Assembly: GCA_903859215.1 (NCBI GenBank)
Contig: CAIOLW010000144.1
Location: 1-64,000 of the forward strand
Direction of reading: 5' to 3'
Source of the DNA: an uncultured bacterium
GTDB lineage: Bacteria > Krumholzibacteriota > Krumholzibacteriia > LZORAL124-64-63
Length of the DNA: 64,000 bases
Positions 49,499 through 62,501 of this stretch are shown here, piece by piece. The notes below the pieces were generated by a model. The model saw nothing but the letters and a program-made list of their open reading frames with translations, was not told the DNA's origin and did no database searches. Position 1 is the stretch's first letter; the number at the start of each line of letters is the position of its first letter. The translations under genes were made by a program, and so were the position numbers.

Positions 49499-50446
49499 AT
49501 GAATACGACCCTCAAAGCCGCTGTCGTCGGCGCCGGCTACCTCGGCCGGTTCCACGCCCAAAAATACGCCGCCCTGCCGGGCGTCGACCTCGTCGCCATC
49601 GTCGATGTGGACCCCGAGCGGGCCCGGGCGGTCGCCGCCGAGACCGGCGCGCCCCATGCCTGCGCCTCGCTCGACGACGTGCCCGCGACGCTGGACCTCG
49701 CCTCGGTGGTCACCCCGAACGACGCCCACTTCGCGACCACAGCGGCGCTGCTCGCGCGCGGCATCCATGTGCTGCTCGAGAAGCCGGTGACCGGCGACGT
49801 CGCCCAGGCCGCCGAGCTGGAAGCGACCGCCGCCGCCCGCGGCCTCATCCTGCAGCCGGGCTTCCTCGAGCGCTTCAACCCGGCCATCCGCTTCCTGCGC
49901 GAGCACGCTCCCCATCCCCGCTTCATCGAGGCGCACCGCCTGGGCGCCTACAAGGCGCGCGCCACCGACGTCGACGTGGTGATGGACCTGATGATCCACG
50001 ACATCGACATCGTCCTGCACCTGATCGGCGCGCCCGTCCGCGAAGTGCGCGCCTCGGGCACGCGCGTGCTGACCGGCCACGTCGACATCGCCAACGCCCG
50101 CCTCGAATTCGCCGGCGGCGCCACCGCCAACCTGACGGCCAGCCGCGTCTCGCTGAAGGACATGCGCAAGGTGCGCGTGTTCAGCGACGGCGGCTACGCG
50201 GCCGCCGACTGCGCCGCGCGCGAAAACGTCGTCGTCTCGCGCGGCGCCGACGGCTCGCTGCCGCTGGCGCCGGTGCCGCAGGTGGTGCAACACCCCGCCT
50301 GCGACCCGCTGCTGGAGGAGATCGCCTCGTTCGTCGCCGCGGTGCGCGGCGACCGCGCGGTGGAAGTGCCGGCCTCGGCCGGGCGCGAGGCCATCACGGT
50401 GGCGCTGGCCATTCGGGCGGCGATGGCGCGGCAGGAGTTGGCGTAA
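49499..50446 (+). CDS. Gfo/Idh/MocA family oxidoreductase
   Basis: AAVVGAGYLGRFHAQKYAALPGVDLVAIVDVDPERARAVAAETGA; GIHVLLEKPVTGDVAQAAEL; DLMIHDIDIVLHL. Confidence 0.93.
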   Translation: MNTTLKAAVVGAGYLGRFHAQKYAALPGVDLVAIVDVDPERARAVAAETGAPHACASLDDVPATLDLASVVTPNDAHFATTAALLARGIHVLLEKPVTGDVAQAAELEATAAARGLILQPGFLERFNPAIRFLREHAPHPRFIEAHRLGAYKARATDVDVVMDLMIHDIDIVLHLIGAPVREVRASGTRVLTGHVDIANARLEFAGGATANLTASRVSLKDMRKVRVFSDGGYAAADCAARENVVVSRGADGSLPLAPVPQVVQHPACDPLLEEIASFVAAVRGDRAVEVPASAGREAITVALAIRAAMARQELA

Positions 50447-50455
50447 GCGGTTGCG

Positions 50456-51502
50456 CTAGTCGCTCCGCTCCACTTGCGCCGGCGCAAGTGCGCCCTCGTA
50501 CACGTGCCGATGCCGATGACACCGCGAACACAGCGTGACCAGGTTCTCCAGGCTGTTGCTCCCGCCCTCGCCGCGCGCCACCACGTGATGCACTTCCAGG
50601 AACCGCGTCGCGCCGCACGCCGGCGTTGTGCAGCGATGCCTGTCCCTCGCCAGCACTTGCGCCCTCGTTGATGGCGGGATCGTCGCCCGGTTGGGCTTGC
50701 CCGGTTCCTGCACACGCGCGTCGCACGCGATGGCCTCCACTTGCGCCGGCGCAAGTCGCTGCTCGCCGCGGCTGGTGACCGCCGCGGCCTCGCCGCAATC
50801 GGGGCACTGGTGCACGACGATTTGCACCGATGGCGCTGCGGATTCGGGCCCGGTCACCGCCGAGGCCACCAGCGCCTCAAGACCCGCCAGCACGAGGTCC
50901 ATTCGGTCCGCGTCGGCGGGCACTAGCTTCAACTTCCGCGCCTTCTCCATGAGCGCCTCGAAGCGGGCCAGCTGCAGGCCGTCGGCGCGCAGGGTGATGG
51001 TGACCGGCGGCATGGACTCAGGCGCCGGGAGCTTCCCTCCCAATTCGGATTGCGCCGCCGACTTGCGCCGGCGCAACTGGCACCGCGCCTGCTTTACCTC
51101 GCGCTCCAGGTCGCGCCGCCCGGTGGCCACGGCTTTGCCCACCCACTCGGCTTGCGTCGCCGGCGTCGCCACGCGCGCCACCTGCTGCGCCTTGGTCCAG
51201 CCCAGGTCGCCGGCCTGCACGGCCTCGCGCAGCACCGGCAACCGGTCGAGGTCATCGGCCAGCCGCTTGAACTGCCAGTAGCGGTTGGGGCTGAACCCCA
51301 GTGCTTCGGCGGCGTAGAGCTGCAGGCTGGCGTGACCGAGCTCGCGATAGAGCGCCCGGCGCTGCACCTCGGCGAACCACAGAACGGCGCACTCGCGGGC
51401 GCGGTCGCAGGCGGCCAGCGACTGGCGCAACGAGGCATCGACCTGCGCGGCGGGGCGGCCGGCGGTAAATACGGGCAATTGGATGGCGGTCATCGGGCCC
51501 AC
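50456..51502 (-). CDS. HNH endonuclease domain protein (DUF222-like N-terminus)
   Basis: RAQVLARDRHRCTTPACGATRFLEVHHVVARGEGGSNSLENLVTLCSRCHRHRH HNH motif; start could be ATG at 51493. Confidence 0.9.
   Translation of the reverse strand: MGPMTAIQLPVFTAGRPAAQVDASLRQSLAACDRARECAVLWFAEVQRRALYRELGHASLQLYAAEALGFSPNRYWQFKRLADDLDRLPVLREAVQAGDLGWTKAQQVARVATPATQAEWVGKAVATGRRDLEREVKQARCQLRRRKSAAQSELGGKLPAPESMPPVTITLRADGLQLARFEALMEKARKLKLVPADADRMDLVLAGLEALVASAVTGPESAAPSVQIVVHQCPDCGEAAAVTSRGEQRLAPAQVEAIACDARVQEPGKPNRATIPPSTRAQVLARDRHRCTTPACGATRFLEVHHVVARGEGGSNSLENLVTLCSRCHRHRHVYEGALAPAQVERSD
50471..50490. repeat. Dispersed palindrome copy 1 (perfect 20 bp)
   Basis: CACTTGCGCCGGCGCAAGTG; inside HNH gene, encodes ..LAPAQV.. 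Confidence 0.97.
50739..50756. repeat. Dispersed palindrome copy 2 (perfect 18 bp)
   Basis: ACTTGCGCCGGCGCAAGT; inside HNH gene, encodes ..LAPAQV.. Confidence 0.97.
51061..51078. repeat. Dispersed palindrome copy 3 (14-bp core 51063-51076)
   Basis: ACTTGCGCCGGCGCAACT; inside HNH gene in another frame, encodes QLRRRK. Confidence 0.95.
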
Positions 51503-51714
51503 GTTTCCGGGAGGAAAGTGATGGCGTAAAGATAGCGAAAGATTGTGGCAACCGCAAGTGGTTGATTTAGTTGGAATGCAGGTTTGTTCCGCCGAACCCC
51601 TTCATTGATATTGCATCCATTTTCATTGTCCTGTTGCGGGACCGCCCCCATGAGGTACGTTTCCGCCCAACGGAAGCCCTTGACCCTAGACGGATCCACC
51701 GAAAGGAAGCCGCC

Positions 51715-52101
51715 ATGCGCATCGCCAAGGAAAGCATCCCCGCAAAGATCAACGTCCCCGGCGCGGTCGCGCGCCAGGTCACTGAATTCGGAGACGCCTC
51801 CGGATTCGGGAAGATGGGCGGCGAATACTTCTCGCTCGCCGCCGGCCTGGATATCTCGCCGCTGCTCAGGGGCCTCAAGGACGACGCCTGCCAGGCGCCG
51901 CACTGGGGCTACATGATCGCGGGCGAGCTTGTCGTGACCTACACCGACGGGAAGACCGATACATGCTCCGCGAATGACCTCTTCTACTGGCCGCCCGGGC
52001 ACAGCGTGCGGGTGGTGGCCGATGCCGAGGTCATCCTGTTCAGCCCCCAGCACGAGCACACCCATGTGATCAATCACATGCTGGACGTGATGAAGGGCTG
52101 A
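51715..52101 (+). CDS. Cupin domain protein
   Basis: HWGYMIAGELVVTYTDGKTDTCSANDLFYWPPGHSVRVVADAEVILFSP. Confidence 0.8.
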   Translation: MRIAKESIPAKINVPGAVARQVTEFGDASGFGKMGGEYFSLAAGLDISPLLRGLKDDACQAPHWGYMIAGELVVTYTDGKTDTCSANDLFYWPPGHSVRVVADAEVILFSPQHEHTHVINHMLDVMKG

Positions 52102-52144
52102 TCCATACGAAAGTAGACGCGGGGCCGACATCCGGCCCCGCGTC

Positions 52145-52164
52145 CACTTGCGCCGGCGCAACTC
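52145..52164. repeat. Dispersed palindrome copy 4
   Basis: CACTTGCGCCGGCGCAACTC, core 52148-52161, between cupin and ribF 3' ends. Confidence 0.95.
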
Positions 52165-52166
52165 CC

Positions 52167-53252
52167 CTACGAGATCCCCAACACCCGCCGCGCCTGCTCC
52201 CCATCGCGCGCCAGCTGCGCCTTCAATTCCTCGACGCCACCAAACGTCGTCTCGCCGCGCAACCGCTCGATCCAGTCGATCTTGATGTTGCGGCCGCGCA
52301 GGTCGCCCTCGAAGCCGAAGATGTTGGCCTCGATGCGCGGGATGGGCAGGCCGCCGCCGTGGAAGGTGGGCACGAAGCCGAAGTTGAGCATGCCGCCGAA
52401 GACGGCCCAGTCGCCGGACGCAGCGCTCAGCATCTCGCCGTGGCGGTCGACTTCGGGCAAGGATTCGGTAACCCGCGCCAGCTGCCCGGGGCCGCCGGCG
52501 GGCGCCACATCGCCCGGCACCTGCACGCGCACCGCGTAGACGCCGACCTTCGGCAGCAGTTTCAGGGCGTCGAGCGGCACCAGGTTCGCGGTGGGGTAGC
52601 CCAGTTCGCGGCCCCGGCGGTCGCCGGGCGTCACTTCGCCCCACAGTTCGTACGGGCGGCCGAGCATGGCGCCGGCCAGCCTCATGTCGCCGTCGCTGAC
52701 GGCGGCGCGGATGGCCGAGCTGCTGATGACGACGTCGCCCTCGCGCACGGGCGGGAACACTTCCAGCGTGAAGCCCAGTTCGCTGCCGAGCGCCGCCAGC
52801 GTCTGTGCATTGCCGTGGCGGCCGGCGCCCAGGTGCACGTCGTGGCCGGCCACCAGGTGCTTCATGCCGAGGTAGCCGACCAGGAAGCGGCCGACGAACT
52901 CGCGGTAGTCGAGCTTGGCCAGCGCCGGGCAGAAGTCGGCGGCGATCACGGTCTCGCAGCCGAGTTCCTTCAGGACGGCCAGCTTCTCGCGCCAGGTGGT
53001 CAGCAGGAAAGGCGTTGTCGAAGGGTCCAGCGTCTGGCGGGGATGGCGGGTGAAGGTGAAGACGGCGCCGTCGCTCAGACCCAGGCGCTCGCGCGCGGTC
53101 ATCACGCCGCGCAGCAGTTCCTGGTGGCCGCGGTGCAGGCCGTCGAACGAGCCGATGGCGAGCGCGCTGCTCGGCAGGTGCGGGCCGCGGTGGCCGATGC
53201 GGCCTTCGACCAGCTCGTTCACGTACTGTTCGCTCAGGCGGATCATCCGCAC
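52167..53252 (-). CDS. ribF: Bifunctional riboflavin kinase/FAD synthetase
   Basis: SALAIGSFDGLHRGHQELL; ELGYPTANLVP; FGFEGDLRGRNIKIDWIERLRGE. Confidence 0.95.
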   Translation of the reverse strand: MRMIRLSEQYVNELVEGRIGHRGPHLPSSALAIGSFDGLHRGHQELLRGVMTARERLGLSDGAVFTFTRHPRQTLDPSTTPFLLTTWREKLAVLKELGCETVIAADFCPALAKLDYREFVGRFLVGYLGMKHLVAGHDVHLGAGRHGNAQTLAALGSELGFTLEVFPPVREGDVVISSSAIRAAVSDGDMRLAGAMLGRPYELWGEVTPGDRRGRELGYPTANLVPLDALKLLPKVGVYAVRVQVPGDVAPAGGPGQLARVTESLPEVDRHGEMLSAASGDWAVFGGMLNFGFVPTFHGGGLPIPRIEANIFGFEGDLRGRNIKIDWIERLRGETTFGGVEELKAQLARDGEQARRVLGIS

Positions 53253-54217
53253 GACGGGTCACCTCCCACGGCCGGCACCACCGTTTCCAGTCGCCAGCCA
53301 TCATCCTCCAACCGGCCGGCCACCGCCACCAGATCCCCGTCCGGGTCCAGCAGCGCGGCGCAGCGCGCCTCGCCCACGTCGCGCAGCCACGCGGCGCCGG
53401 GCTGCGCGCCCTGGCGCACGGCCGCGGCATCGGCGGCCTCGAGCACCACCTGCGGCAGGTGCGGCAGCGCGCGCCCGAGCGGAATCGCGGCGGCCGCCAT
53501 GTCGGCGCCCCGCGCGTTCATCACGTCCGCGAACGCATCGTCCACGCGGAACGGGCCCACGACGGTGCGGCGCAGCGCCGACAGGTGCCCCAGCGAACCG
53601 GCCGCCAGCGCCAGGTCGCGCGCCAGCGAGCGGATGTAGGTGCCGCTCGAGCAGTCCACCTCGAGGTCGAGTTCGGGCAACGCCTGGTCCCAGCGCGCGG
53701 CCACGATGCGCAGCCCGTGGATGGTGACCGGTCGCGGCTCGGGCTCGGGCACGTCGTGGCCGGCGCGCGCCTCGCGGTGCAGTGTCTTGCCGTCGCGCTT
53801 GAGCGCGCTGTAGATGGGCGGCACCTGCAGGATGGGACCGGTGAAGCGGTCGAGGACGGCGCTCACGTCGTCGCTCGAGGACGGCGGCGGCGCCGTGGCG
53901 GTCACTTCGCCGTCGGCATCGAGCGTGTCGGTGCCGGCGCCGAAGCGAATCGTGGCCAGGTAGGTCTTGTCGAGGCCGACCAGGAACGGCGTCAGGCGGC
54001 AGGCGCGTCCCAGCAGCACCAGCAGTAGGCCCGTGGCCAGCGGGTCGAGCGTGCCGGCGTGGCCCGTGCGGAACCGCATCGTGGCCGGGCCGCCGCCGCG
54101 CTTCTTGCGCGCGCGCAGGTCGGGGAAGTCTTCGGCGATCGCGTGCAGGACGCGCCCGGCGACGGTGTGCGACGTGACGCCCGCCGGCTTGTCGACCAGC
54201 AGCAGCCCGCTGTTCAT
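53243..54217 (-). CDS. truB: tRNA pseudouridine(55) synthase
   Basis: GLLLVDKPAGVTSHTVAG; FRTGHAGTLDPLATGLLLVLLGRA; GTYIRSLARDLA. Confidence 0.95.
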   Translation of the reverse strand: MNSGLLLVDKPAGVTSHTVAGRVLHAIAEDFPDLRARKKRGGGPATMRFRTGHAGTLDPLATGLLLVLLGRACRLTPFLVGLDKTYLATIRFGAGTDTLDADGEVTATAPPPSSSDDVSAVLDRFTGPILQVPPIYSALKRDGKTLHREARAGHDVPEPEPRPVTIHGLRIVAARWDQALPELDLEVDCSSGTYIRSLARDLALAAGSLGHLSALRRTVVGPFRVDDAFADVMNARGADMAAAAIPLGRALPHLPQVVLEAADAAAVRQGAQPGAAWLRDVGEARCAALLDPDGDLVAVAGRLEDDGWRLETVVPAVGGDPSCG

Positions 54218-55743
54218 GCGCGCGGCATGGCGGCCAGCTGGGCCACCAGGTCGTCGATGATGTCGGCCAGCGCGCCCTCGATGGTGCAGCCCGCCGCGGC
54301 GCGGTGCCCGCCGCCGCCATACTTGGCCGCCACCTGCTGCACATCGCCCTCGCGGGCGCGCAGCGAGGCGCGCCAGATGTCGTCGCCGTTCTCCTTCAGG
54401 AAGACCACGAAACGCACGCCGTCGACGGCCGTCGCGATGTTCACGAAGCCCTCGGTGTCGGTCATCGAGCCGCCGGTCTCTTCGATCATCGCGCGCGAGG
54501 CGTGCAGCACCAGGATGCGGCCCTGGTCGTACCACTGGAACGTGGCCAGCACGCGCTGCATCAGTTCGATGCCGGTGCGCCGGTACCGGTGCAGCGTCAT
54601 CGAGGCGACCTTCGCCGTGTCGACGCCCATCGCCGACAGGCGGCGCGCCAGCTCGAAGGTGAACGGCACCGTGTTGTCGAAGCGGAAGCCGCCGGTGTCG
54701 TTGACCAGGCCGGCGTAGAGGTTCGTCGCCATGTCGAGCGTCATCTCGAACGGCGCGTCGCCCTCGGGCCCGGCGCCCTCCTCGTCTTCGGTGTCCAGAT
54801 CTTCAGGGACCAGATCTTCAAGGACCTCGTCTTCAAGGGGCAGGTCTTCGGTGTTCAGATATTCACGCGATTCAGACGACAAGTCTTCGGCATCCAGGTC
54901 GCCCTTGGCCAGCTCCGAAATCACCTGGTAAATCAACGTGCACGTCGAACACGCGCGCGCCTCGATCCAGCCGGGCTCGGGCGCGCGGCGCCCGCTGACC
55001 AGGTGGTGGTCGATGGCCAGGCGGGTCTCGCAGCGCGCCAGCGTCTCTTCCAGCGGGCCCGTGCGGTCGATGCGGTGGCAGTCCACCAGCACGATGGTGT
55101 CGGGCTCCTCGGCCGTGAAGGCCGCCGGCGCCTTGTCGCTGTACAGCACCTCGCGGTGGCCCGGCAGGTCGGCCAGGCCGACGGCCGGATCGGGGTACGC
55201 CAGCACGCGCGCCTGCCGGCCCATGGCCGTGAGCGCCTGCCCGAGCGCCAGCGCGGCGCCCATCGCGTCGGGATCGGGATTGTGGTGCGGCACCACCCAG
55301 ACGACGCGCGCCAGGCGCAGCGCCGTCAGCAGGTGCGCGGGCGGCACCAGGTCGTCCAGGCAGAGCTGCCGGCGCTTCTCGGCCTCGGTCAGGAACTCGC
55401 CCTTGCCCTTCAGTTCGTTGAGCAGGCCGTCGAGCACTTCGCCGCGCACCAGCGACTCGTCGTACACGAACCGCAGGTCGGGCGTCGTGCGCATGCCCAG
55501 CGTCTTGCTGAGCCGCGCCTGCAAAAAGCCCCGGGCCTTCTTGAGCCCCTCGAGCGACTGCGCCGGGTCGGCCCCTTCGCCCATCACCGAGAAGTACACC
55601 TCGGCCACCGAGTGGTCCCGGTTGAGCTTGACGCCCCCAAGCGTGACGAACCCCACGCGCGGATCCTTCACATGCGCCTGCAGCAAATTCGAGAGCACCT
55701 CGAGAATCGCGTGCGTCATCTTGTTGGTCCTGTACGGATCCAT
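54214..55743 (-). CDS. RbfA-DHH/DHHA1 phosphoesterase (NrnA-like) fusion
   Basis: N-terminal RbfA (ILEVLSNLLQAHVKDPRVGFVTLGGVKLNRDHSVAEVYFSVMG) followed by VVWVVPHHNPDPDAMGAALALGQAL, LVDCHRIDR, IDHHLVSG and GGGGHRAAAG. Confidence 0.88.
   Translation of the reverse strand: MDPYRTNKMTHAILEVLSNLLQAHVKDPRVGFVTLGGVKLNRDHSVAEVYFSVMGEGADPAQSLEGLKKARGFLQARLSKTLGMRTTPDLRFVYDESLVRGEVLDGLLNELKGKGEFLTEAEKRRQLCLDDLVPPAHLLTALRLARVVWVVPHHNPDPDAMGAALALGQALTAMGRQARVLAYPDPAVGLADLPGHREVLYSDKAPAAFTAEEPDTIVLVDCHRIDRTGPLEETLARCETRLAIDHHLVSGRRAPEPGWIEARACSTCTLIYQVISELAKGDLDAEDLSSESREYLNTEDLPLEDEVLEDLVPEDLDTEDEEGAGPEGDAPFEMTLDMATNLYAGLVNDTGGFRFDNTVPFTFELARRLSAMGVDTAKVASMTLHRYRRTGIELMQRVLATFQWYDQGRILVLHASRAMIEETGGSMTDTEGFVNIATAVDGVRFVVFLKENGDDIWRASLRAREGDVQQVAAKYGGGGHRAAAGCTIEGALADIIDDLVAQLAAMPRA
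54789..54902. repeat. Degenerate in-frame 15-bp tandem repeat within RbfA-DHH gene
   Basis: gtcttcggtgtccag|atcttcagggaccag|atcttcaaggacctc|gtcttcaaggggcag|gtcttcggtgttcag ... gtcttcggcatccag; encodes xxxED pentapeptides (LNTED LPLED EVLED LVPED LDTED). Confidence 0.85.
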
Positions 55744-55802
55744 CTCTTTATCTCCCGCGCTGTTCCTCGAGGCGTACGTGATCGAGCATCAGGTGCCCGT
55801 GC

Positions 55803-55896
55803 GTAGTTTGGTGGTGGATGCGAATTCGGGCAGGCTATCCGCAGGAGCGAAGCTCCGAGGACTGCCTGCCCGAGTTCGCATCCACCATCAAACTAC
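55803..55896. repeat. Long inverted repeat/hairpin, 33-bp arms (31/33 identical), overlapping infB stop codon
   Basis: GTAGTTTGGTGGTGGATGCGAATTCGGGCAGGC (55803-55835) versus reverse complement of 55864-55896 GTAGTTTGATGGTGGATGCGAACTCGGGCAGGC; inner GGAGC-GAA-GCTCC hairpin. Confidence 0.97.
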
Positions 55897-58757
55897 AACT
55901 CGGTGCGCTTGATCTCCTCGATCTCGTAACACTCGAGGACGTCGCCCTCTTCCATGTCGTAGAAGTTCTCCAACCCGATACCGCATTCGTACCCGGTCGC
56001 GACTTCCCTGGCGTCTTCCTTGAAGCGCTTGAGCGAGTTGACCTTGCCCTCGAAGACCACGACCTCGTTGCGCACCAGCCGCGCGCGCGAGTTCCGCTTG
56101 ATGACGCCGTCCAGCACCATCGAGCCGGCCACCGAGCCGACCTTCGGGATCCGGAACACGACGCGCACCTGGGCGCGACCGGTCGAGACCTCGCGCTTGA
56201 TGCTGCCGAGCAGGCCGGCCATCGCCTTCTTGAGCGTGTCGACGACCTCGTAGATGATGTCGAAGACCTCGATGGTCACGTTGTGCCGCTTGGCCATGTC
56301 CTGGATCGCGGCGCCCGGACGCAGGTGGAAGCCGATGATCATGGCGCCCACGTTGGCCGCCAGCAGCACATCGGATTCCGAAACCGCGCCCACGGCCTTG
56401 TGCATGATGCGGACCTGCACCTCGGACGTGTTCAGTTCCATGAGCTGGCCGGCAAGGGCCTCCACGGAACCGGCGACGTCGCCCTTGATGATGATCGGCA
56501 GTTCCTTGAGGTCGCCGGCGCTCATCAGGTTGGCCAGGTTGTCCAGGTCGATGACCTGCTTCGGCCCGACCAGCTTCTGCTGGCGCTGCAGGCTGCGGCG
56601 CTTGGCCGCCAGGTCGCGGGCCTCGCGCTCGGTCTCCAGCCCGTAGAAGCGGTCGCCGGCCTCGGGCACCGCCGAGGCGCCCAGCACCTCGCAGGGCTCG
56701 CCGGGCATCACGATCTTCATCGTCTTGCCGCGCTCGTCCTGCAGGGCGCGCACCTTGCCGTCAACCATGCCGGCCAGGAAGTTGTCGCCCATCTTCAGGG
56801 TGCCCTGCTCCATGAGGACCGTGAACACGACGCCCCGGCCCTGTTCCTTCTTGGCCTCGATCACGATGCCGCGCGCGGGGCCCTTCGGGCTGGCCTTGAG
56901 CTCCAGCACCTCGGCCTGCAGGTGGATCATGTCGAGCAGGTTCTCGATGCCGATGCCCTTCTTGGCCGAGATCTCGGCGATCATCGTCGAGCCGCCGAAC
57001 TCCTCGACCGCGATGCCGTGCTGCAGCAGCTCGTGCTTCACCAGGTCCGGACGCGAGCCCGGCAGGTCGATCTTGTTGATCGCCACGATCATGGGCACGC
57101 CCGCCGCCTTCGCGTGCGAGATGGCCTCGACCGTCTGCGGCATGACGCGATCGTCGGCCGCCACGATCAGGATCACGATGTCCGTCACCTGCGCGCCGCG
57201 GGCGCGCATGGCGGTGAACGCCGCGTGGCCCGGGGTGTCCAGGAACGTGATCGGGCCCTTCGCCGTCGCCACGGTGTAGGCGCCGATGTGCTGCGTGATG
57301 CCGCCGGCCTCGCCCGCGATCACGTTCGTGTTGCGGATACGGTCCAGCAGCGACGTCTTGCCATGGTCGACGTGACCCATGACGGTCACCACCGGCGGGC
57401 GATCCACCAGGTCCTCGTCCTTGGCCGCTTCGGTCTCGAGCACTTCCTCGCCGTACTCGGAGAGGAACTCGACCTCGCGGTCGTAATCGGCCGCCAGCAG
57501 TTCGATGCTGGACTTCTCCAGCCGCTGGTTGATGGTCGCCATGATGCCGACGCTGAACAGCTTGCCGATCAGCTCCTGGGCCTTGACCTGCAGCTTGTCG
57601 GCCAGCTCCTGGACGGTGATGTACTCGGTCAGCTTCAGCAGGGTGGTCTCCACCGTCTCGTCTTCTTCCTGTTCTCCGCCCTTGCGCCGTTTCTTCTTGC
57701 CCGTGGCGCCGCCGAGCTGCGCCATGGTCGCCTTGACCGCGCGCTGCACCTCGACATCATCGACCTTCTTCTTCTTCTTGCGGGCGCGCTTGGCGCGCTG
57801 GTTCGCTTCGCGGGCGTCGGCTTCCTCGCGACGGCGCGCAATGGCCGCCTTGATGGAGTCGCGCACCGAATCGCTGCTGACGGTGCCGGTGCCGGCAGCG
57901 CCGGGCGTGGTGCCGTCGGCCCGCGGCTTCGGCGCCGCGCGGATGATGTCGCCGACCTTGAAGCCGTCGTTCTTCTTCGTGCCCAGGCCGTCCAGCGGAT
58001 CGGCCGGGCTGCCCGGGCCGGCCGGCTTGGCCGGCGTACCGGCGGGAGCCGCGGCTTCCGGCGTCGCGGCCGGCGCCTCGCCCTCGACGTGCGCCGGCGT
58101 CTCGGTCGTGTCGACGACCGGGGCCTCGAACGCGTCGGCCAGCACATCGCCGGCCTCGGCGACGGGCGCCACCTCGACGGGCTCGACGACCACCGGCACC
58201 TCTTCGGGCTTCGGCAGGTCGGCCTTCTTGACCAGGCGCGCCTTCACCTGGCGGGCCTCCGCGTGCTCTTCGCGCTTGGCGGCCAGGTCGGATTCGCGCT
58301 TCTCGTGTTCCTCGCGGCGCCGCGCGGCCTCGGCTTCCCTGGCCTGCTCGACAGCGTCCTTGTCGGCCTGCGCCTTCTTGGACACCGCGGTGGCCTGGCC
58401 GGCCTTCTTGATGACCAGCACCTTGGGCTTGGCGACGACCTTCTTCTTGGTCACCTTCTTCTTCGTGACCTTCAGCTCCGGCTCGGGCTCGTCCGTCGGG
58501 ACGGGCTTCTCGAGCGGCTTGAGCGCCGCCACGTTCTTGAGCTGGTCGGGGTTGAGCCCGTGCGAGCGCGCGTAGTTCTCGCGCGCAAGCTCACGCTTGC
58601 GCTGGAAGATGGCGTGGACCTTGTCCACGTCCTCGTCCTCGAGCACGCTCATGTGGCTCTTGGCCTCGACCTTCATCTTCTGGAGCAGATCCATGATCTG
58701 CTTGCTGTCGACACCGTAGTGCCGACCCAGTTCGTAAACGCGCAGCTTCCTCAGCAA
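55893..58757 (-). CDS. infB: Translation initiation factor IF-2
   Basis: PPVVTVMGHVDHGKTSLLDRIR; probable TTG start (LLRKLRVYELGRHYGVD) after GGAGG. Confidence 0.96.
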   Translation of the reverse strand: MLRKLRVYELGRHYGVDSKQIMDLLQKMKVEAKSHMSVLEDEDVDKVHAIFQRKRELARENYARSHGLNPDQLKNVAALKPLEKPVPTDEPEPELKVTKKKVTKKKVVAKPKVLVIKKAGQATAVSKKAQADKDAVEQAREAEAARRREEHEKRESDLAAKREEHAEARQVKARLVKKADLPKPEEVPVVVEPVEVAPVAEAGDVLADAFEAPVVDTTETPAHVEGEAPAATPEAAAPAGTPAKPAGPGSPADPLDGLGTKKNDGFKVGDIIRAAPKPRADGTTPGAAGTGTVSSDSVRDSIKAAIARRREEADAREANQRAKRARKKKKKVDDVEVQRAVKATMAQLGGATGKKKRRKGGEQEEDETVETTLLKLTEYITVQELADKLQVKAQELIGKLFSVGIMATINQRLEKSSIELLAADYDREVEFLSEYGEEVLETEAAKDEDLVDRPPVVTVMGHVDHGKTSLLDRIRNTNVIAGEAGGITQHIGAYTVATAKGPITFLDTPGHAAFTAMRARGAQVTDIVILIVAADDRVMPQTVEAISHAKAAGVPMIVAINKIDLPGSRPDLVKHELLQHGIAVEEFGGSTMIAEISAKKGIGIENLLDMIHLQAEVLELKASPKGPARGIVIEAKKEQGRGVVFTVLMEQGTLKMGDNFLAGMVDGKVRALQDERGKTMKIVMPGEPCEVLGASAVPEAGDRFYGLETEREARDLAAKRRSLQRQQKLVGPKQVIDLDNLANLMSAGDLKELPIIIKGDVAGSVEALAGQLMELNTSEVQVRIMHKAVGAVSESDVLLAANVGAMIIGFHLRPGAAIQDMAKRHNVTIEVFDIIYEVVDTLKKAMAGLLGSIKREVSTGRAQVRVVFRIPKVGSVAGSMVLDGVIKRNSRARLVRNEVVVFEGKVNSLKRFKEDAREVATGYECGIGLENFYDMEEGDVLECYEIEEIKRTEL

Positions 58758-58821
58758 CTCGCACAACCTCCGACAGCGGGATGTCCGCCGCGCCCGGCCC
58801 ATACGGCCCGGCGCCCTGACG

Positions 58822-59190
58822 TCACCCCAGTTTCCGGATCCCGTCGACGAAACCCGGATCACACACACTCACGACCGAGAGCTTGTTTCGTCCCAGGTGC
58901 GTCGCCAGTTCGTCGCACGTGACCTGGTCGGCCACGAAGCCCCGCACCGGCTCCCACCGCAGCGCCCGTGTGCGCTGCCCGGCTCCCATGTCGACCGCCA
59001 GGATCACCAGCGGCCTTTCGTTCCGGTGGACGGCCTGCTCCACCGCGCTCCAACCCACCTGCAGCTTGTTCGCGCGCCGGGCCAGGCCCAGCAGCGCCAG
59101 CAGTCGCGACGGATCGCGCGGGACGGCAGTGGCGTCCTTGTCCAAAGCGTCCTTGTCCACAGCGTCCTGGTCCACAGCGTCCTGGTCCAA
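58822..59190 (-). CDS. L7Ae-family ribosomal/RNA-binding protein (YlxQ-like)
   Basis: RLLALLGLARRANKLQVGWSAVEQAVHRNERPLVILAVDMG; TTG start directly after the nusA stop (TAG TTG); repeat-derived N-terminus. Confidence 0.75.
   Translation of the reverse strand: MDQDAVDQDAVDKDALDKDATAVPRDPSRLLALLGLARRANKLQVGWSAVEQAVHRNERPLVILAVDMGAGQRTRALRWEPVRGFVADQVTCDELATHLGRNKLSVVSVCDPGFVDGIRKLG
59131..59190. repeat. Four 15-bp tandem repeats GCGTCCTkGTCCAmA
   Basis: gcgtccttgtccaaa gcgtccttgtccaca gcgtcctggtccaca gcgtcctggtccaac; encodes DQDAV/DKDAL repeats at the L7Ae-like N-terminus. Confidence 0.93.
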
Positions 59191-60681
59191 CTAGTCGTCC
59201 AGTTCGGTGTTGGCGAACGGGTTGACCTTCGGCTCTTCCTCTTCGGCCTCGGTCTTCGGCAAGTCCTTGAACAGCTCGCCCGCCGGCATGGGCACGTCGC
59301 CCTGCTCGAACGCGGCCAGCGTCTCGTCGGACTGCATGCCCTCGTCGGTCAGCGCCGACTCGTCGAACAGCGGCTTCTCGGCCTCGGCTTCCTTGGCCAG
59401 CTCCTCGGCGATCGTCCGGTCGATCAGCACCTTCAGCTGGTCCGAGGTCATCTGGGCCGTGGTCTGCAGCGTCTCGGCCGTCTCCTCGTCCATGCCCGGC
59501 AGCTCGACCAGGGTGGCGTACGGGACGTCGGCCAGGGCGTCGATGGTGTCGATGCCCACGGCCTCGAGCACGACCAGGATCTCCGGCGTGACGCCGTCCA
59601 TCTCGGCCAGCTGCATGGTCATCTCGTCGACGACGCGCTGGCGGATGCCGTACTCGCGCGCCGACACGAGGTCGATCTTCCATTCGGTCAGCTTGGCGGC
59701 CAGGCGGACGTTCTTGCCTTCCTTGCCGATCGCCTTGCTGAGCTGGTCGTCGCCGACGATGACCGTGGCCTCGTTGCGGTCGCGGTGCAGCTCGATGTGG
59801 CTGACGATGGCCGGGCTCAGCGCGCGGGCGATCATCAGGCTGGGCTCGGCGCTCCAGGGCACGATGTCCACGCGCTCGCCCGAGAGCTCGCGCGTCACGG
59901 CCTGCACGCGGCTGCCCTTCATGCCGACGCAGCTGCCCACCGGGTCGACCCGGTCGTCGTTGCTGACCACGGCGATCTTCGAGCGGGTTCCCGGCTCGCG
60001 CGCCACGGCCCGGATCTCGACGATCTTCTCCTGGATCTCGGGCACTTCCTGCTCGAACAGCGCCTTCAGGAAACCGGGATGGCTGCGCGAGAGGATGACC
60101 TGCGGGCCCTTGGCGTTGTCCAGCACCTCGATGATGAAGCAGCGGACCGTCTTGCCCTGGTGCAGCTTCTCGCCGCGGATCTGCTCGCGGAACGGCATCA
60201 TCGCCTCGGTGCGGCCCAGGTTGACCAGCACGTTGCCGCGGTCGACCTGCTGCACGGTGCCCACGATGATCTCGTTGACCCTGTTCTTGTACTCCTCGAA
60301 GATCTGCGCGCGCTCGGCCTCGCGGACCTTCTGCACCAGGATCTGCTTGGCGACCAGGATGGCGTTGCGGCCGAACTCGTCGACCTCCAGCGGCCAGCGG
60401 AGCTCATCGCCCAGTTCGACACCCTCGCCGAACTCGATCTGCGCCTCTTCCAGCGAGATGTCGGTATCCGGGTCGTCGACTTCCTCGACCACCGTCTTGA
60501 CCATCTCGACCGACATCGCCCCGGTCACGGGGTCGACCTTCGCATCGATGTTCGCCTCGGCGCCCAGCTTCTTGCGGGCAGCCGACTGCAGGCCGGCCTC
60601 GAGCGACTCGATGATGATGGCCTTGTCGATGTTCTTTTCCCTGGCGATCTCGTTCAGGGCCTGCAGTACGTTGTGGTCCAT
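59191..60681 (-). CDS. nusA: Transcription termination/antitermination factor NusA
   Basis: S1/KH domains: VDPVGSCVGMKGSRVQAVTRELSGERVDIVPW. Confidence 0.97.
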   Translation of the reverse strand: MDHNVLQALNEIAREKNIDKAIIIESLEAGLQSAARKKLGAEANIDAKVDPVTGAMSVEMVKTVVEEVDDPDTDISLEEAQIEFGEGVELGDELRWPLEVDEFGRNAILVAKQILVQKVREAERAQIFEEYKNRVNEIIVGTVQQVDRGNVLVNLGRTEAMMPFREQIRGEKLHQGKTVRCFIIEVLDNAKGPQVILSRSHPGFLKALFEQEVPEIQEKIVEIRAVAREPGTRSKIAVVSNDDRVDPVGSCVGMKGSRVQAVTRELSGERVDIVPWSAEPSLMIARALSPAIVSHIELHRDRNEATVIVGDDQLSKAIGKEGKNVRLAAKLTEWKIDLVSAREYGIRQRVVDEMTMQLAEMDGVTPEILVVLEAVGIDTIDALADVPYATLVELPGMDEETAETLQTTAQMTSDQLKVLIDRTIAEELAKEAEAEKPLFDESALTDEGMQSDETLAAFEQGDVPMPAGELFKDLPKTEAEEEEPKVNPFANTELDD

Positions 60682-60684
60682 GCG

Positions 60685-61395
60685 CTAACTCTCCTGCTTG
60701 TCCGGGCCGCCGCCGGCCTTGCCGTCTTTGTTCTTCGGGCGGCCCTTGCGCCGCGCCGGGCGTTCCCGGCGCTCCTGCTGTTTCGCGTCCTTCTTCTGCC
60801 GGCGGTCCGCGTGGATGATCGCCTGCACATCGAACTCGGGATCGAGGTTGCCCTCGCGCAGCCGGCTCATCCCCAGGGTGACCGGCTTCGGCAGCGCGGC
60901 GGGCGGCGGCGCGGGCTTGGCCGCCTCGCCCTCCACCGGGCCAGGCGTCGTGTCGGCCCGCGGCACCGGCTGGATGGTCACCGTCGAGGCGCTCACTTCC
61001 AGCAACGTGCCGCGGAGCCGCTTGGCGCCGTCGGGAACGGAGACCTTCACCTCGATGCGCTTGCCGACCGCGGCCAGGTAATGCTCCCGGGTCCGCAACG
61101 GCCGCCGCACACCGGGCGACGAGACTTCGAGCACGTAGGGGTCGGCGATGGAGTCGGCCTCTTCGAGCAGCATGCTGACGGTGCGCGACGCGGTCGCCAC
61201 TTCGTCGAGATTGATGCCGCCCTCGGGCAGGTCGACGAAGATGCGCAGCGTGATGCGACCGCCGCCCCGGAACACGCGGACGTCCAGCAGCTCGAAGCCC
61301 TGGTTCGTCAGCTCGCCCTCCAGCAAGTCGATGACCTCGGCGGCGAGCCGCCTGGGTTCGAATCGCGTGGTTTCGGGCGTTCCGGGTTCGGTCAA
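60685..61395 (-). CDS. rimP: Ribosome maturation factor RimP
   Basis: FELLDVRVFRGGGRITLRIFVDLPEGGINLDEVATASRTVSMLLEE...YVLEVSSPGVRRPLRTREHY; TTG start. Confidence 0.93.
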   Translation of the reverse strand: MTEPGTPETTRFEPRRLAAEVIDLLEGELTNQGFELLDVRVFRGGGRITLRIFVDLPEGGINLDEVATASRTVSMLLEEADSIADPYVLEVSSPGVRRPLRTREHYLAAVGKRIEVKVSVPDGAKRLRGTLLEVSASTVTIQPVPRADTTPGPVEGEAAKPAPPPAALPKPVTLGMSRLREGNLDPEFDVQAIIHADRRQKKDAKQQERRERPARRKGRPKNKDGKAGGGPDKQES

Positions 61396-61418
61396 GTCTC
61401 GGCACCATCCATCGGGCT

Positions 61419-61446
61419 AAAAAAAAAGTGGACGTTAAGCCCACCT
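61419..61446 (-). terminator. Terminator/attenuator-like hairpin in rimP leader
   Basis: Reverse strand GGTGGGC-TTAAC-GTCCAC(T) stem followed by 9 Ts, 24 nt before the rimP TTG. Confidence 0.55.
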
Positions 61447-61489
61447 CAAAAAGCCCACCTGCGTTGCTGTGGGGTCTCTGGGTGATGCC

Positions 61490-61518
61490 AATATACCCGG
61501 CGGGGGCGTTTGCAGCAA
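61490..61518 (-). promoter_or_regulatory. Candidate sigma70-type promoter of rimP-nusA-infB operon
   Basis: Reverse strand TTGCTG (61513-61518), exact 17-bp spacer, TATATT (61490-61495). Confidence 0.7.
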
Positions 61519-61684
61519 GCGCAATCGGTTTGGGGGGTTGGGGATGGGAGTTCGGGTTTTCGGAAGGGTTCGGGGCCAGCCGGGCCCGACTTTGTTTGCC
61601 GCGACGGGATCCCCTTAAATGACAACATATTATCGATAAATGTTCATCCGGCCTGCGAACCGGGTCGCGGGGCCTTTGCGCCGC

Positions 61685-61704
61685 CACTTGCGCCGGCGCA
61701 AGTC
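61685..61704. repeat. Dispersed palindrome copy 5 (18-bp perfect 61686-61703)
   Basis: CACTTGCGCCGGCGCAAGTC, next to the 3' end of the methyltransferase gene. Confidence 0.97.
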
Positions 61705-61712
61705 GGGCCTGG

Positions 61713-62450
61713 TCAGCCGGCCACCCCCACCACGTCGATCGCCCACGGCGCCACCGCCGTCTCGCTGACCCAGGCGATGCCCTCGTCGGGCCGGCCCAGC
61801 GGCAGGTGCTCATGGATCCGCATCATCCCCGCCCGCCGGTACACCTCCAGGTACGCGTCCCGCTCCCAGAGGATGTCGTCGACCGGCCGGCGGTCGGGCA
61901 CATCGAGCATGATGATCCGCACCTGGTCGCCGGTGCGGGCCTGACGGTTTTCCGGGAAGTCCTTCGTCGAGAACGACACCCACTCGTGCCTGTAGATGTC
62001 CGGCGACGAGACCAGGTTCAGCAGCCGGCCGCCGGGCGCCAGGCGCGCGCGCAGCGCCGACATCAGCGCCACCTTCTTCTCCCAGCCGGGGATGTTGTCG
62101 AAGGTGAAGGCCGACAGGACCAGGTCGAAGGGGCCCGTCACATCGTCGGCAAGGTCGCCGTCGCGCACCAGGTGGTAGCCGCCCTGCGGGTCGCGCGCGC
62201 GGGCGAGGTCGAGCATCGCGGCGGAGATGTCGGCGCCGCACGCGTCCCAGCCGTGCGCTTTCAGGAAGCGCGTCGAGCGTCCGGCGCCGCAGCCGAAATC
62301 GAGGGCGCGGCGGGTCGGCGTGTTTGCGTGACGCGTGATGAGGTCGGGGATATCGCGGAACGCCAGATGGTAGGTGCCCGGGTACTCGAGCTGGTCGTAC
62401 GAGGCGGCGCGGTCGGCATCGTCATACACGTTGCTGAAGTCATCGGTCAT
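61713..62450 (-). CDS. Class I SAM-dependent methyltransferase
   Basis: RALDFGCGAGRSTRFLKAHGWDACGADISAAMLDLARARDP; FDLVLSAFTFDNIPG. Confidence 0.9.
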   Translation of the reverse strand: MTDDFSNVYDDADRAASYDQLEYPGTYHLAFRDIPDLITRHANTPTRRALDFGCGAGRSTRFLKAHGWDACGADISAAMLDLARARDPQGGYHLVRDGDLADDVTGPFDLVLSAFTFDNIPGWEKKVALMSALRARLAPGGRLLNLVSSPDIYRHEWVSFSTKDFPENRQARTGDQVRIIMLDVPDRRPVDDILWERDAYLEVYRRAGMMRIHEHLPLGRPDEGIAWVSETAVAPWAIDVVGVAG

Positions 62451-62464
62451 CTTCGCATCCCCCT

Positions 62465-62482
62465 ACTTGCGCCGGCGCCAGT
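62465..62482. repeat. Dispersed palindrome copy 6 (one mismatch pair)
   Basis: ACTTGCGCCGGCGCCAGT, immediately 5' of the methyltransferase gene. Confidence 0.9.
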
Positions 62483-62501
62483 TATCTGAAAGACCAGCGT
62501 C

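Follow-up and report, generated by a model that had tools for sequence, protein, structure and literature searches.

The window analysed here (the whole 64,000-nucleotide stretch, positions 1 to 64,000 of contig CAIOLW010000144.1 from an uncultured bacterium of the Krumholzibacteriota) contains near its right end a gene for a predicted HNH nuclease, together with copies of a short perfect palindrome, several of them inside the gene itself. The comparisons described below suggest that the palindrome is probably the specific binding site of a dimer of the protein encoded by this gene, and that the gene family and the palindrome form a co-evolving pair. The host genus is labelled g1 throughout, and the host genome comprises 4.33 Mb in 391 contigs. 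All the genomes compared are metagenome assemblies, with genes called by a small purpose-made caller based on codon usage.

In g1 the palindrome has the consensus [G/C]ACTTGCGCCGGCGCAAGT[G/C], a symmetric unit with no conservation in its outside flanks. As a sequence-only reading of the window had noticed, there are six copies: the 14-bp core TTGCGCCGGCGCAA is found exactly at 50474, 50741, 51063, 52148 and 61688, and with a single mismatch at 62467. That reading also held that three copies are perfect palindromes, that the repeat exceeds what base composition would give and that the first 50 kb is free of it, and all three points were borne out. Eight matches with at most two mismatches are found in the window against a shuffle mean of 1.28 (maximum 5), and the first 50 kb contains no exact core, the two 2-mismatch matches there being at chance level. 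The features of the locus are:

50456..51502, minus strand: HNH gene, 348 aa; Pfam HNH (PF01844), E = 9.8e-11; the ATG at codon 4 is probably the conserved start
51044..51451, minus strand: predicted ParB/Noc-like helical DNA-binding domain, residues 18–153, from Foldseek
51272..51286, minus strand: predicted first turn of the recognition helix, residues 73–77, which covary with the half-site
50498..50674, minus strand: predicted HNH nuclease domain, residues 277–335, catalytic and zinc residues conserved
51529..51557, minus strand: sigma70-like promoter of the HNH gene (TTGCGG, 17 bp, TATCTT), conserved in g1 paralogues
50471..50490: palindrome copy 1, perfect over 20 bp, close to the 3' end of the HNH coding sequence, where it specifies LAPAQV
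50739..50756: palindrome copy 2, perfect over 18 bp, also internal to the HNH coding sequence, where it specifies LAPAQV; the distance to copy 1 is 267 bp
51063..51076: palindrome copy 3, 14-bp core, likewise internal to the HNH coding sequence but read in a different frame, as LRRRK
52148..52161: palindrome copy 4, probably the upstream copy of the HNH gene, a cupin gene now lying between
61686..61703: palindrome copy 5, perfect over 18 bp, dispersed and intergenic; the orthologous site in the congener G003 has the copy and an extra 767-bp stretch after it
62467..62480: palindrome copy 6, one mismatch, dispersed and intergenic; G003 carries an 828-bp stretch in its place

Copies 1 to 3 had been described as lying around the HNH gene; they sit within its coding sequence, where copies 1 and 2 bracket the region encoding the HNH domain. 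In the congener G001 the cupin gene is absent and a palindrome is found ~240 bp past the HNH homology, and copy 4 is probably the displaced upstream palindrome of the HNH gene. Two further copies follow shortly past the window end on the same contig (64590 and 64628). The palindrome is repeated throughout the genome and not just locally, since the 16-mer CTTGCGCCGGCGCAAG has 126 copies in the host genome (its reversed control has 0) and the 14-mer core has 224. Its density is 2.47/kb in HNH genes, 0.40/kb within 500 bp of them, 0.067/kb at 0.5–5 kb and 0.090/kb beyond. Thus the clustering seen by the sequence-only reading holds inside the gene and up to 500 bp from it, but not at 0.5–5 kb, where the density is at background level, so that copies 5 and 6 are unrelated to the position of the HNH gene and belong to the dispersed background. 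Wider clustering is ruled out by the lack of any excess past 500 bp.

The copies inside the HNH genes appear to be constrained at the level of DNA. Across 26 g1 paralogues, whose proteins are ~30% divergent, the [LVI]APAQ sites are spelled TTGCGCCGGCGCAA in 48 of 48 cases and the LRRRK sites in 10 of 10. CTT and CAA are disfavoured codons (4% and 17%), and the probability of this spelling from codon usage is ~9e-4 per LAPAQ site. It is not the protein that is conserved here, because the encoded residues differ in other genera. The pattern points to a constraint on the DNA beyond that on the encoded protein, which may be due to selection acting on the site or to its being homogenised repeatedly.

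The protein is predicted to consist of a ParB/Noc-like DNA-binding domain, a linker, a zinc ribbon and an HNH nuclease. Its AlphaFold model (pLDDT 83.6) has a helical N-terminal domain, the zinc ribbon and the HNH domain, in which C291, C296, H305, N320, C325, C328, H329 and H333 are invariant. With the N-terminal domain Foldseek retrieves ParB and Noc DNA-binding domains (7o0n, 7bnk, 6sdk, 6y93), with many chains at a probability of 0.93–1.00 and rmsd of 2–3 Å; ParB 7o0n is matched at probability 1.00 and rmsd 2.7, and 6y93, the Noc DNA-binding domain on its site, at probability 1.00, TM (target) 0.70 and rmsd 2.8 over 103 columns. The C-terminal part retrieves McrA-type HNH nucleases. ParB and Noc act as dimers in reading palindromes, and their specificity has been traced to two helices, the recognition helix (helix 4) and helix 6 (PMC7383237). 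Neither the Pfam scans nor the AlphaFold model revealed an N-terminal ParB-type CTPase domain. Pfam matches over 40 members are to HNH in all 40, to DUF222 (PF02720) in eight at E up to 0.5 (best 3.8e-7) and, weakly, to HTH_ParB in eight; the window protein itself has no Pfam match to DUF222. The gene family is multicopy: the host genome has eight matches, three congeners have 5–18, and other genera of the family have as many as 28. The copies, 5–28 per genome, diverge from each other and several are truncated. No empty site was available for the window HNH copy, since each of the four g1 genomes has the gene, or a fragment of it at a contig end, in this position, and the search for relatives on plasmids gave one weak HNH-domain match only.

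Counting over 58 genomes revealed that each lineage has its own palindrome. The TTGCGCCGGCGCAA 14-mer is present in 141–296 copies in congeners, in 6 and 6 copies in the sister genus g13 and in at most one copy elsewhere. HNH genes of other genera carry other perfect palindromes (CCCCCCGGGGGG, CCCGCCGGCGGG, GTCCACCCGGGTGGAC, AGTCCAGACGTCTGGACT, AGTCCACACGTGTGGACT, TGTACACGTGTACA and more), and each of the four that were counted beyond g1 is concentrated in those genomes in which HNH genes contain it: ACCCGCCGGCGGGT in G027 (11), G019 (9) and G012 (4), with at most one copy elsewhere; TCCACCCGGGTGGA in G045 (20; at most 2 elsewhere); TCCAGACGTCTGGA in G005 (11; 0 elsewhere); and TCCACACGTGTGGA in G022 and G013 only. 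Their dispersed copies are again mostly intergenic; since these stretches were picked for holding the motif, the locations are informative and the densities are not. Palindromes of at least 14 bp are contained in 51 of the 66 HNH genes that lack the g1 core (codon-shuffle mean 6.6, maximum 15), in variable linkers and at positions that differ between lineages. Where a gene with a palindrome also has one 60–330 bp upstream, a 12-bp core is common to the upstream and internal copies in 12 of 13 cases (permutation mean 3.0, maximum 8). Equal abundance of the palindrome in relatives without the HNH family, the outcome that the sequence-only reading had named as speaking against a link, was not seen: in the one HNH-less genome sampled, G040, no 14-bp palindrome occurs more than once in 347 kb, while the g1 core has 23 and 65 copies in two 400-kb samples of G003, and the relatives that have HNH genes have other palindromes.

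Two further arrangements were noticed outside g1. A more distant HNH relative in G009 (L057, gene near 1429–2406) has GCGGAACGTTCCGC on both flanks of the gene and none inside, so that flanking may be the older arrangement. In genus g8 (G027) there is a composite element of ~100 bp, with CCCCCCGGGGGG and CCCGCCGGCGGG 49–50 bp apart and a conserved inner sequence, GCAGTGATATTTATTATCCATGC (L122 17062–17123, L128 2418–2480, L129 10281–10342, L132 9630–9691 and L134 5434–5494). Each of its palindromes matches the site of a different HNH paralogue, as in a REPIN of two specificities.

If the palindrome is the site of the protein, the recognition helix should follow the palindrome. Does it? Among 57 proteins of less than 80% identity, the difference in each five-residue window was correlated with the difference in half-site, and residues 73–77, at the predicted start of the recognition helix, rank first of ~300 windows (r = 0.73); none of 1000 entropy-matched random sets of five columns reached this value. 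The same residues also come first when g1 and g13 are left out (0.60), when only pairs of less than 50% identity are taken (0.56) and within a set of 12 paralogues from one genome (0.72), and by column-wise mutual information residue 73 is first of 283. Residues 73–77 were chosen after the helix/half-site pairs had been viewed, while the window scan itself is exhaustive. Typical pairs of helix turn and half-site are NRYWQ with GGCGCAA, TRTGD with GGGGGG, SR[T/A][D/N/R]D with GGGGGC, SK[T/A]YE with GGGTGG and GTCTGG, and AK[T/F]YQ with GTGTAC, and several specificities coexist within one genome. This covariation supports the predicted specific binding of the protein to a palindrome of 14–16 bp.

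The dispersed copies in g1 are placed in a characteristic way. In 400 kb of G003, 53 of the 65 copies are intergenic although ~88% of the sequence is coding, and five of the 12 genic copies lie in the two HNH genes. Most palindromes are found within 100 bp of gene 3' ends, 5' ends are avoided, and convergent gaps are enriched (14 observed against 4.1 expected). In nearly all orthologous intervals of comparable length the palindrome is present in both g1 species. Over the 16 orthologous sites that could be summed, which take in a few HNH-internal copies and two low values that are misalignments, the palindrome columns are 87.5% identical as compared to 52% for the remainder of the interval. The conserved orthologous copies point to slow spread. 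No orientation of the element could be recovered from the flank GCGCAAGTGG, on which the sequence-only reading had relied: beyond the symmetric ACTTG...CAAGT, the neighbouring tetranucleotides CGAC, GCAC, CCAC and GGAC are similarly frequent on both sides. An oriented or longer repeat unit in g1 is not supported, with nothing conserved past the symmetric 18–20 bp and an inner sequence common to some doublets only. In such doublets the palindromes lie 34 bp apart round CATCACGACTCNGTGA, and one orthologous g1 site has a doublet in G003 and a singlet in G000, the difference being exactly one 34-bp unit (loci L107 8716–8763, L104 17188–17235 and G000 C130 near 36347). A different sequence, TGTTCCACGTGGAACA, is close to the classical parS and occurs twice in 400 kb of G003 (C9/C40 stretches, L096–L115); this is probably where the chromosomal ParB binds, and it is a separate element from the dispersed palindrome.

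Gene content also varies at the palindromes. Towards the right end of the window there are four differences of gene size from congeners, and each of them adjoins a palindrome (50440–50472, 52101–52166, 61707–61726 and 62450–62501). They concern the cupin gene, a gene resembling a methyltransferase, and two G003 stretches of ~770 and ~830 bp. At another locus the order palindrome-HNH-palindrome is seen in one genome, and G000 has other, unrelated genes with a palindrome between them. In G003 C40 (L099 4146–4977) two palindromes enclose an ORF of 242 aa of unknown family and the orthologous site in G000 C92 (L015 1498–1517) is a single palindrome, which resembles a clean gene cassette. Pooled, extra DNA is present in 4 of 17 palindrome gaps and in 4 of 94 other gaps; in the systematic comparison of palindromes as breakpoints of gene gain and loss, the single tests were not significant.

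The promoter of the HNH gene keeps its form in the HNH genes of other genera, whatever their palindrome (common form CTTGC...TTCG..TATATT in the leaders of all genera; window 51500–51560). The resemblance of its -35 element (CTTGCGG) to the half-site is therefore a coincidence, and autoregulation through this element as a half-site was rejected. Between promoter and start, HNH genes have a CCTCCC motif that could pair with a GGAGG ribosome-binding site in several members, with weak folding z-scores. Elsewhere in the window, a single ORF (54214–55743, minus strand) has RbfA at its N-terminus followed by a DHH/DHHA1 phosphoesterase, an apparent fusion of ribosome-binding factor A and a nanoRNase-like protein, and a ~30-bp stretch at ~55835–55864 recurs with 93% identity at numerous positions in every g1 genome, perhaps as a coding repeat, perhaps as a second dispersed one.

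What does the HNH protein do at the palindrome then? The sequence-only reading had linked the repeat to the HNH protein as a REP-like or non-autonomous mobile element or as a recognition site. The link is upheld by the in-gene sites, the lineage-matched dispersal and the covariation of the recognition helix, and a recognition site is the best-supported of these readings; the repeat could also be a non-autonomous mobile element, but most of its copies are kept at orthologous sites. That the HNH protein recognises the palindrome is, as a computational prediction, well supported; cleavage and mobility we infer. In the mechanism that we propose, two ParB-like domains would bind the two half-sites and thereby position the zinc ribbon and the HNH domain, which may nick or cut at or beside the palindrome. 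With lower confidence, repair of the break could copy material from one palindrome to another, be it palindromes, the HNH gene or genes next to it. The pair would then spread selfishly, in the manner of REP/RAYT or of homing, and genes would be gained and lost with its sites as the breakpoints. In its fullest form, which we regard as tentative and somewhat short of an even chance, this would be a self-propagating system in which ParB/Noc-like HNH nucleases create, maintain and spread their own palindromes in the chromosome and in their own genes, diversify via one helix turn and swap genes between palindromes as cassettes.

Several points weigh against our interpretation. The HNH genes share descent, so that covariation and self-carriage are not fully independent, although shared descent would inflate all such correlations and not that of one particular window. 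Single Foldseek E-values for the whole model are weak (0.1–0.5), though the top domain matches agree. Most dispersed copies are kept at orthologous sites between species, as would be expected of sites that move slowly or are maintained, more than of highly active mobility. The association between palindromes and gene-sized indels is suggestive at most (Fisher p 0.055 in one direction, 0.25 in the other). About 15 of 94 HNH genes have no palindrome of at least 14 bp. A nuclease with 140–300 sites in its own genome must be restrained somehow.

A different role would be that of a chromosome organiser or regulator of the Noc type, whose proteins bind dispersed palindromes that are selected for the benefit of the cell and are not selfish. 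Noc sites are spread chromosome-wide, and the Noc/ParB-like domain, the unchanged cores at most orthologous sites amid flanks of ~52% identity, and the placement of sites near 3' ends and in convergent gaps, away from 5' ends, would all suit such a role. However, the HNH nuclease is conserved, the copies in each genome are many, divergent and in part truncated, several specificities are found in one genome and sites lie within the gene itself. We consider the organiser rather unlikely, and favour the selfish pair over it, since the genes are numerous, divergent and sometimes truncated and the nuclease has been preserved.

The remaining explanations separate the palindrome from the protein. Some other factor could spread palindromes that land neutrally, hitting HNH genes often since these are many and tolerant, as the location in variable linkers, at positions differing between lineages, might indicate; but other genes rarely carry palindromes (as the G003 counts given above show), the in-gene copies lack synonymous drift, and matching to the recognition helix would not be expected, which makes this very unlikely. 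A function in RNA, with palindromes forming hairpins that terminate transcripts or stabilise mRNA at gene ends, would agree with the 3'-end location, with the folding energy of the 18-mer (-8.1 kcal/mol) and with the T runs after some G027 copies. It is nevertheless highly improbable, as in g1 the T tract is absent, copies lie within the HNH coding sequence, and what is kept within a lineage is sequence identity, beyond pairing, that tracks the DNA-binding helix. Finally, copy number, intergenic 3'-end location and doublets resemble those of REPs and BIMEs (PMC2817692), and one might think of ordinary REP elements spread by a RAYT (a Y1 tyrosine transposase), with the HNH link incidental. This is the least probable of all, since a search with PF01797 (Y1_Tnp) found no match in G000, G002, G003, G005, G019, G027 and G045, and a fragment with a stop in G001, which disfavours RAYT as the partner in the assembled key genomes; among 168 arms just two have a GTAG head and seven a GGAG head, and the palindrome tracks the HNH recognition helix.

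We therefore return to the HNH protein and its palindrome as a pair. In the open-access literature we found no earlier link between DUF222/HNH proteins and REP-like palindromes, and enzyme and palindrome look like a previously undescribed co-evolving pair, with a real chance of deserving a class of its own. The pair suggests a function for the large, unexplained, multicopy DUF222-like HNH family, namely reading, and probably cutting, the palindrome present inside the gene of each lineage, and it would link recognition of the ParB/Noc type to a nuclease. Natural pairs of helix and palindrome are available by the dozen, even in one genome, and so provide a ready data set for the evolution of DNA-binding specificity. 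The claim is open to test with purified domains and short duplexes, for example the protein's own ACTTGCGCCGGCGCAAGT beside AGTCCAGACGTCTGGACT, GTCCACCCGGGTGGAC and GGCCCCCCGGGGGGCC.

How does the pair compare with known systems? With Noc/NBS and ParB/parS (PMC7383237) it shares the predicted fold, and here too a dimer would read perfect palindromes of 14–16 bp, with its specificity in the recognition helix; the CTP-binding domain and membrane helix of those proteins are not seen here, a zinc ribbon and HNH domain are fused instead, and the genes are multicopy with many lineage-specific palindromes. Like the DUF222/13E12 HNH family (REP13E12 of mycobacteria; PMC10589994), the genes are repeated and multicopy, some members match PF02720 and all match HNH, but most of the members compared here miss the DUF222 model. 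Free-standing HNH homing endonucleases (PMC3943268) are likewise multicopy, selfish-looking HNH genes with site-specific DNA binding (predicted here); in contrast to them, the supposed target is intact in and beside the gene, hundreds of targets persist in the host genome, and no intron or intein is involved. The closest parallel may be REP/REPIN-RAYT (PMC2817692, PMC3116915), with short, dispersed, intergenic palindromes, often in more than 100 copies (here 141–296), near gene 3' ends, as singlets and doublets, and with a dedicated DNA-processing enzyme whose gene lies beside its cognate palindromes and co-evolves with them. The enzyme here is a ParB/Noc-like HTH joined to an HNH nuclease, with many copies per genome, unlike the Y1 tyrosine transposase RAYT, and the palindrome, unlike REP, is perfect and symmetric, without a GT(A/G)G head or loop, and has copies inside the enzyme's coding sequence. 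It would be a second, independent kind of pairing between an enzyme and a dispersed palindrome besides RAYT/REP.

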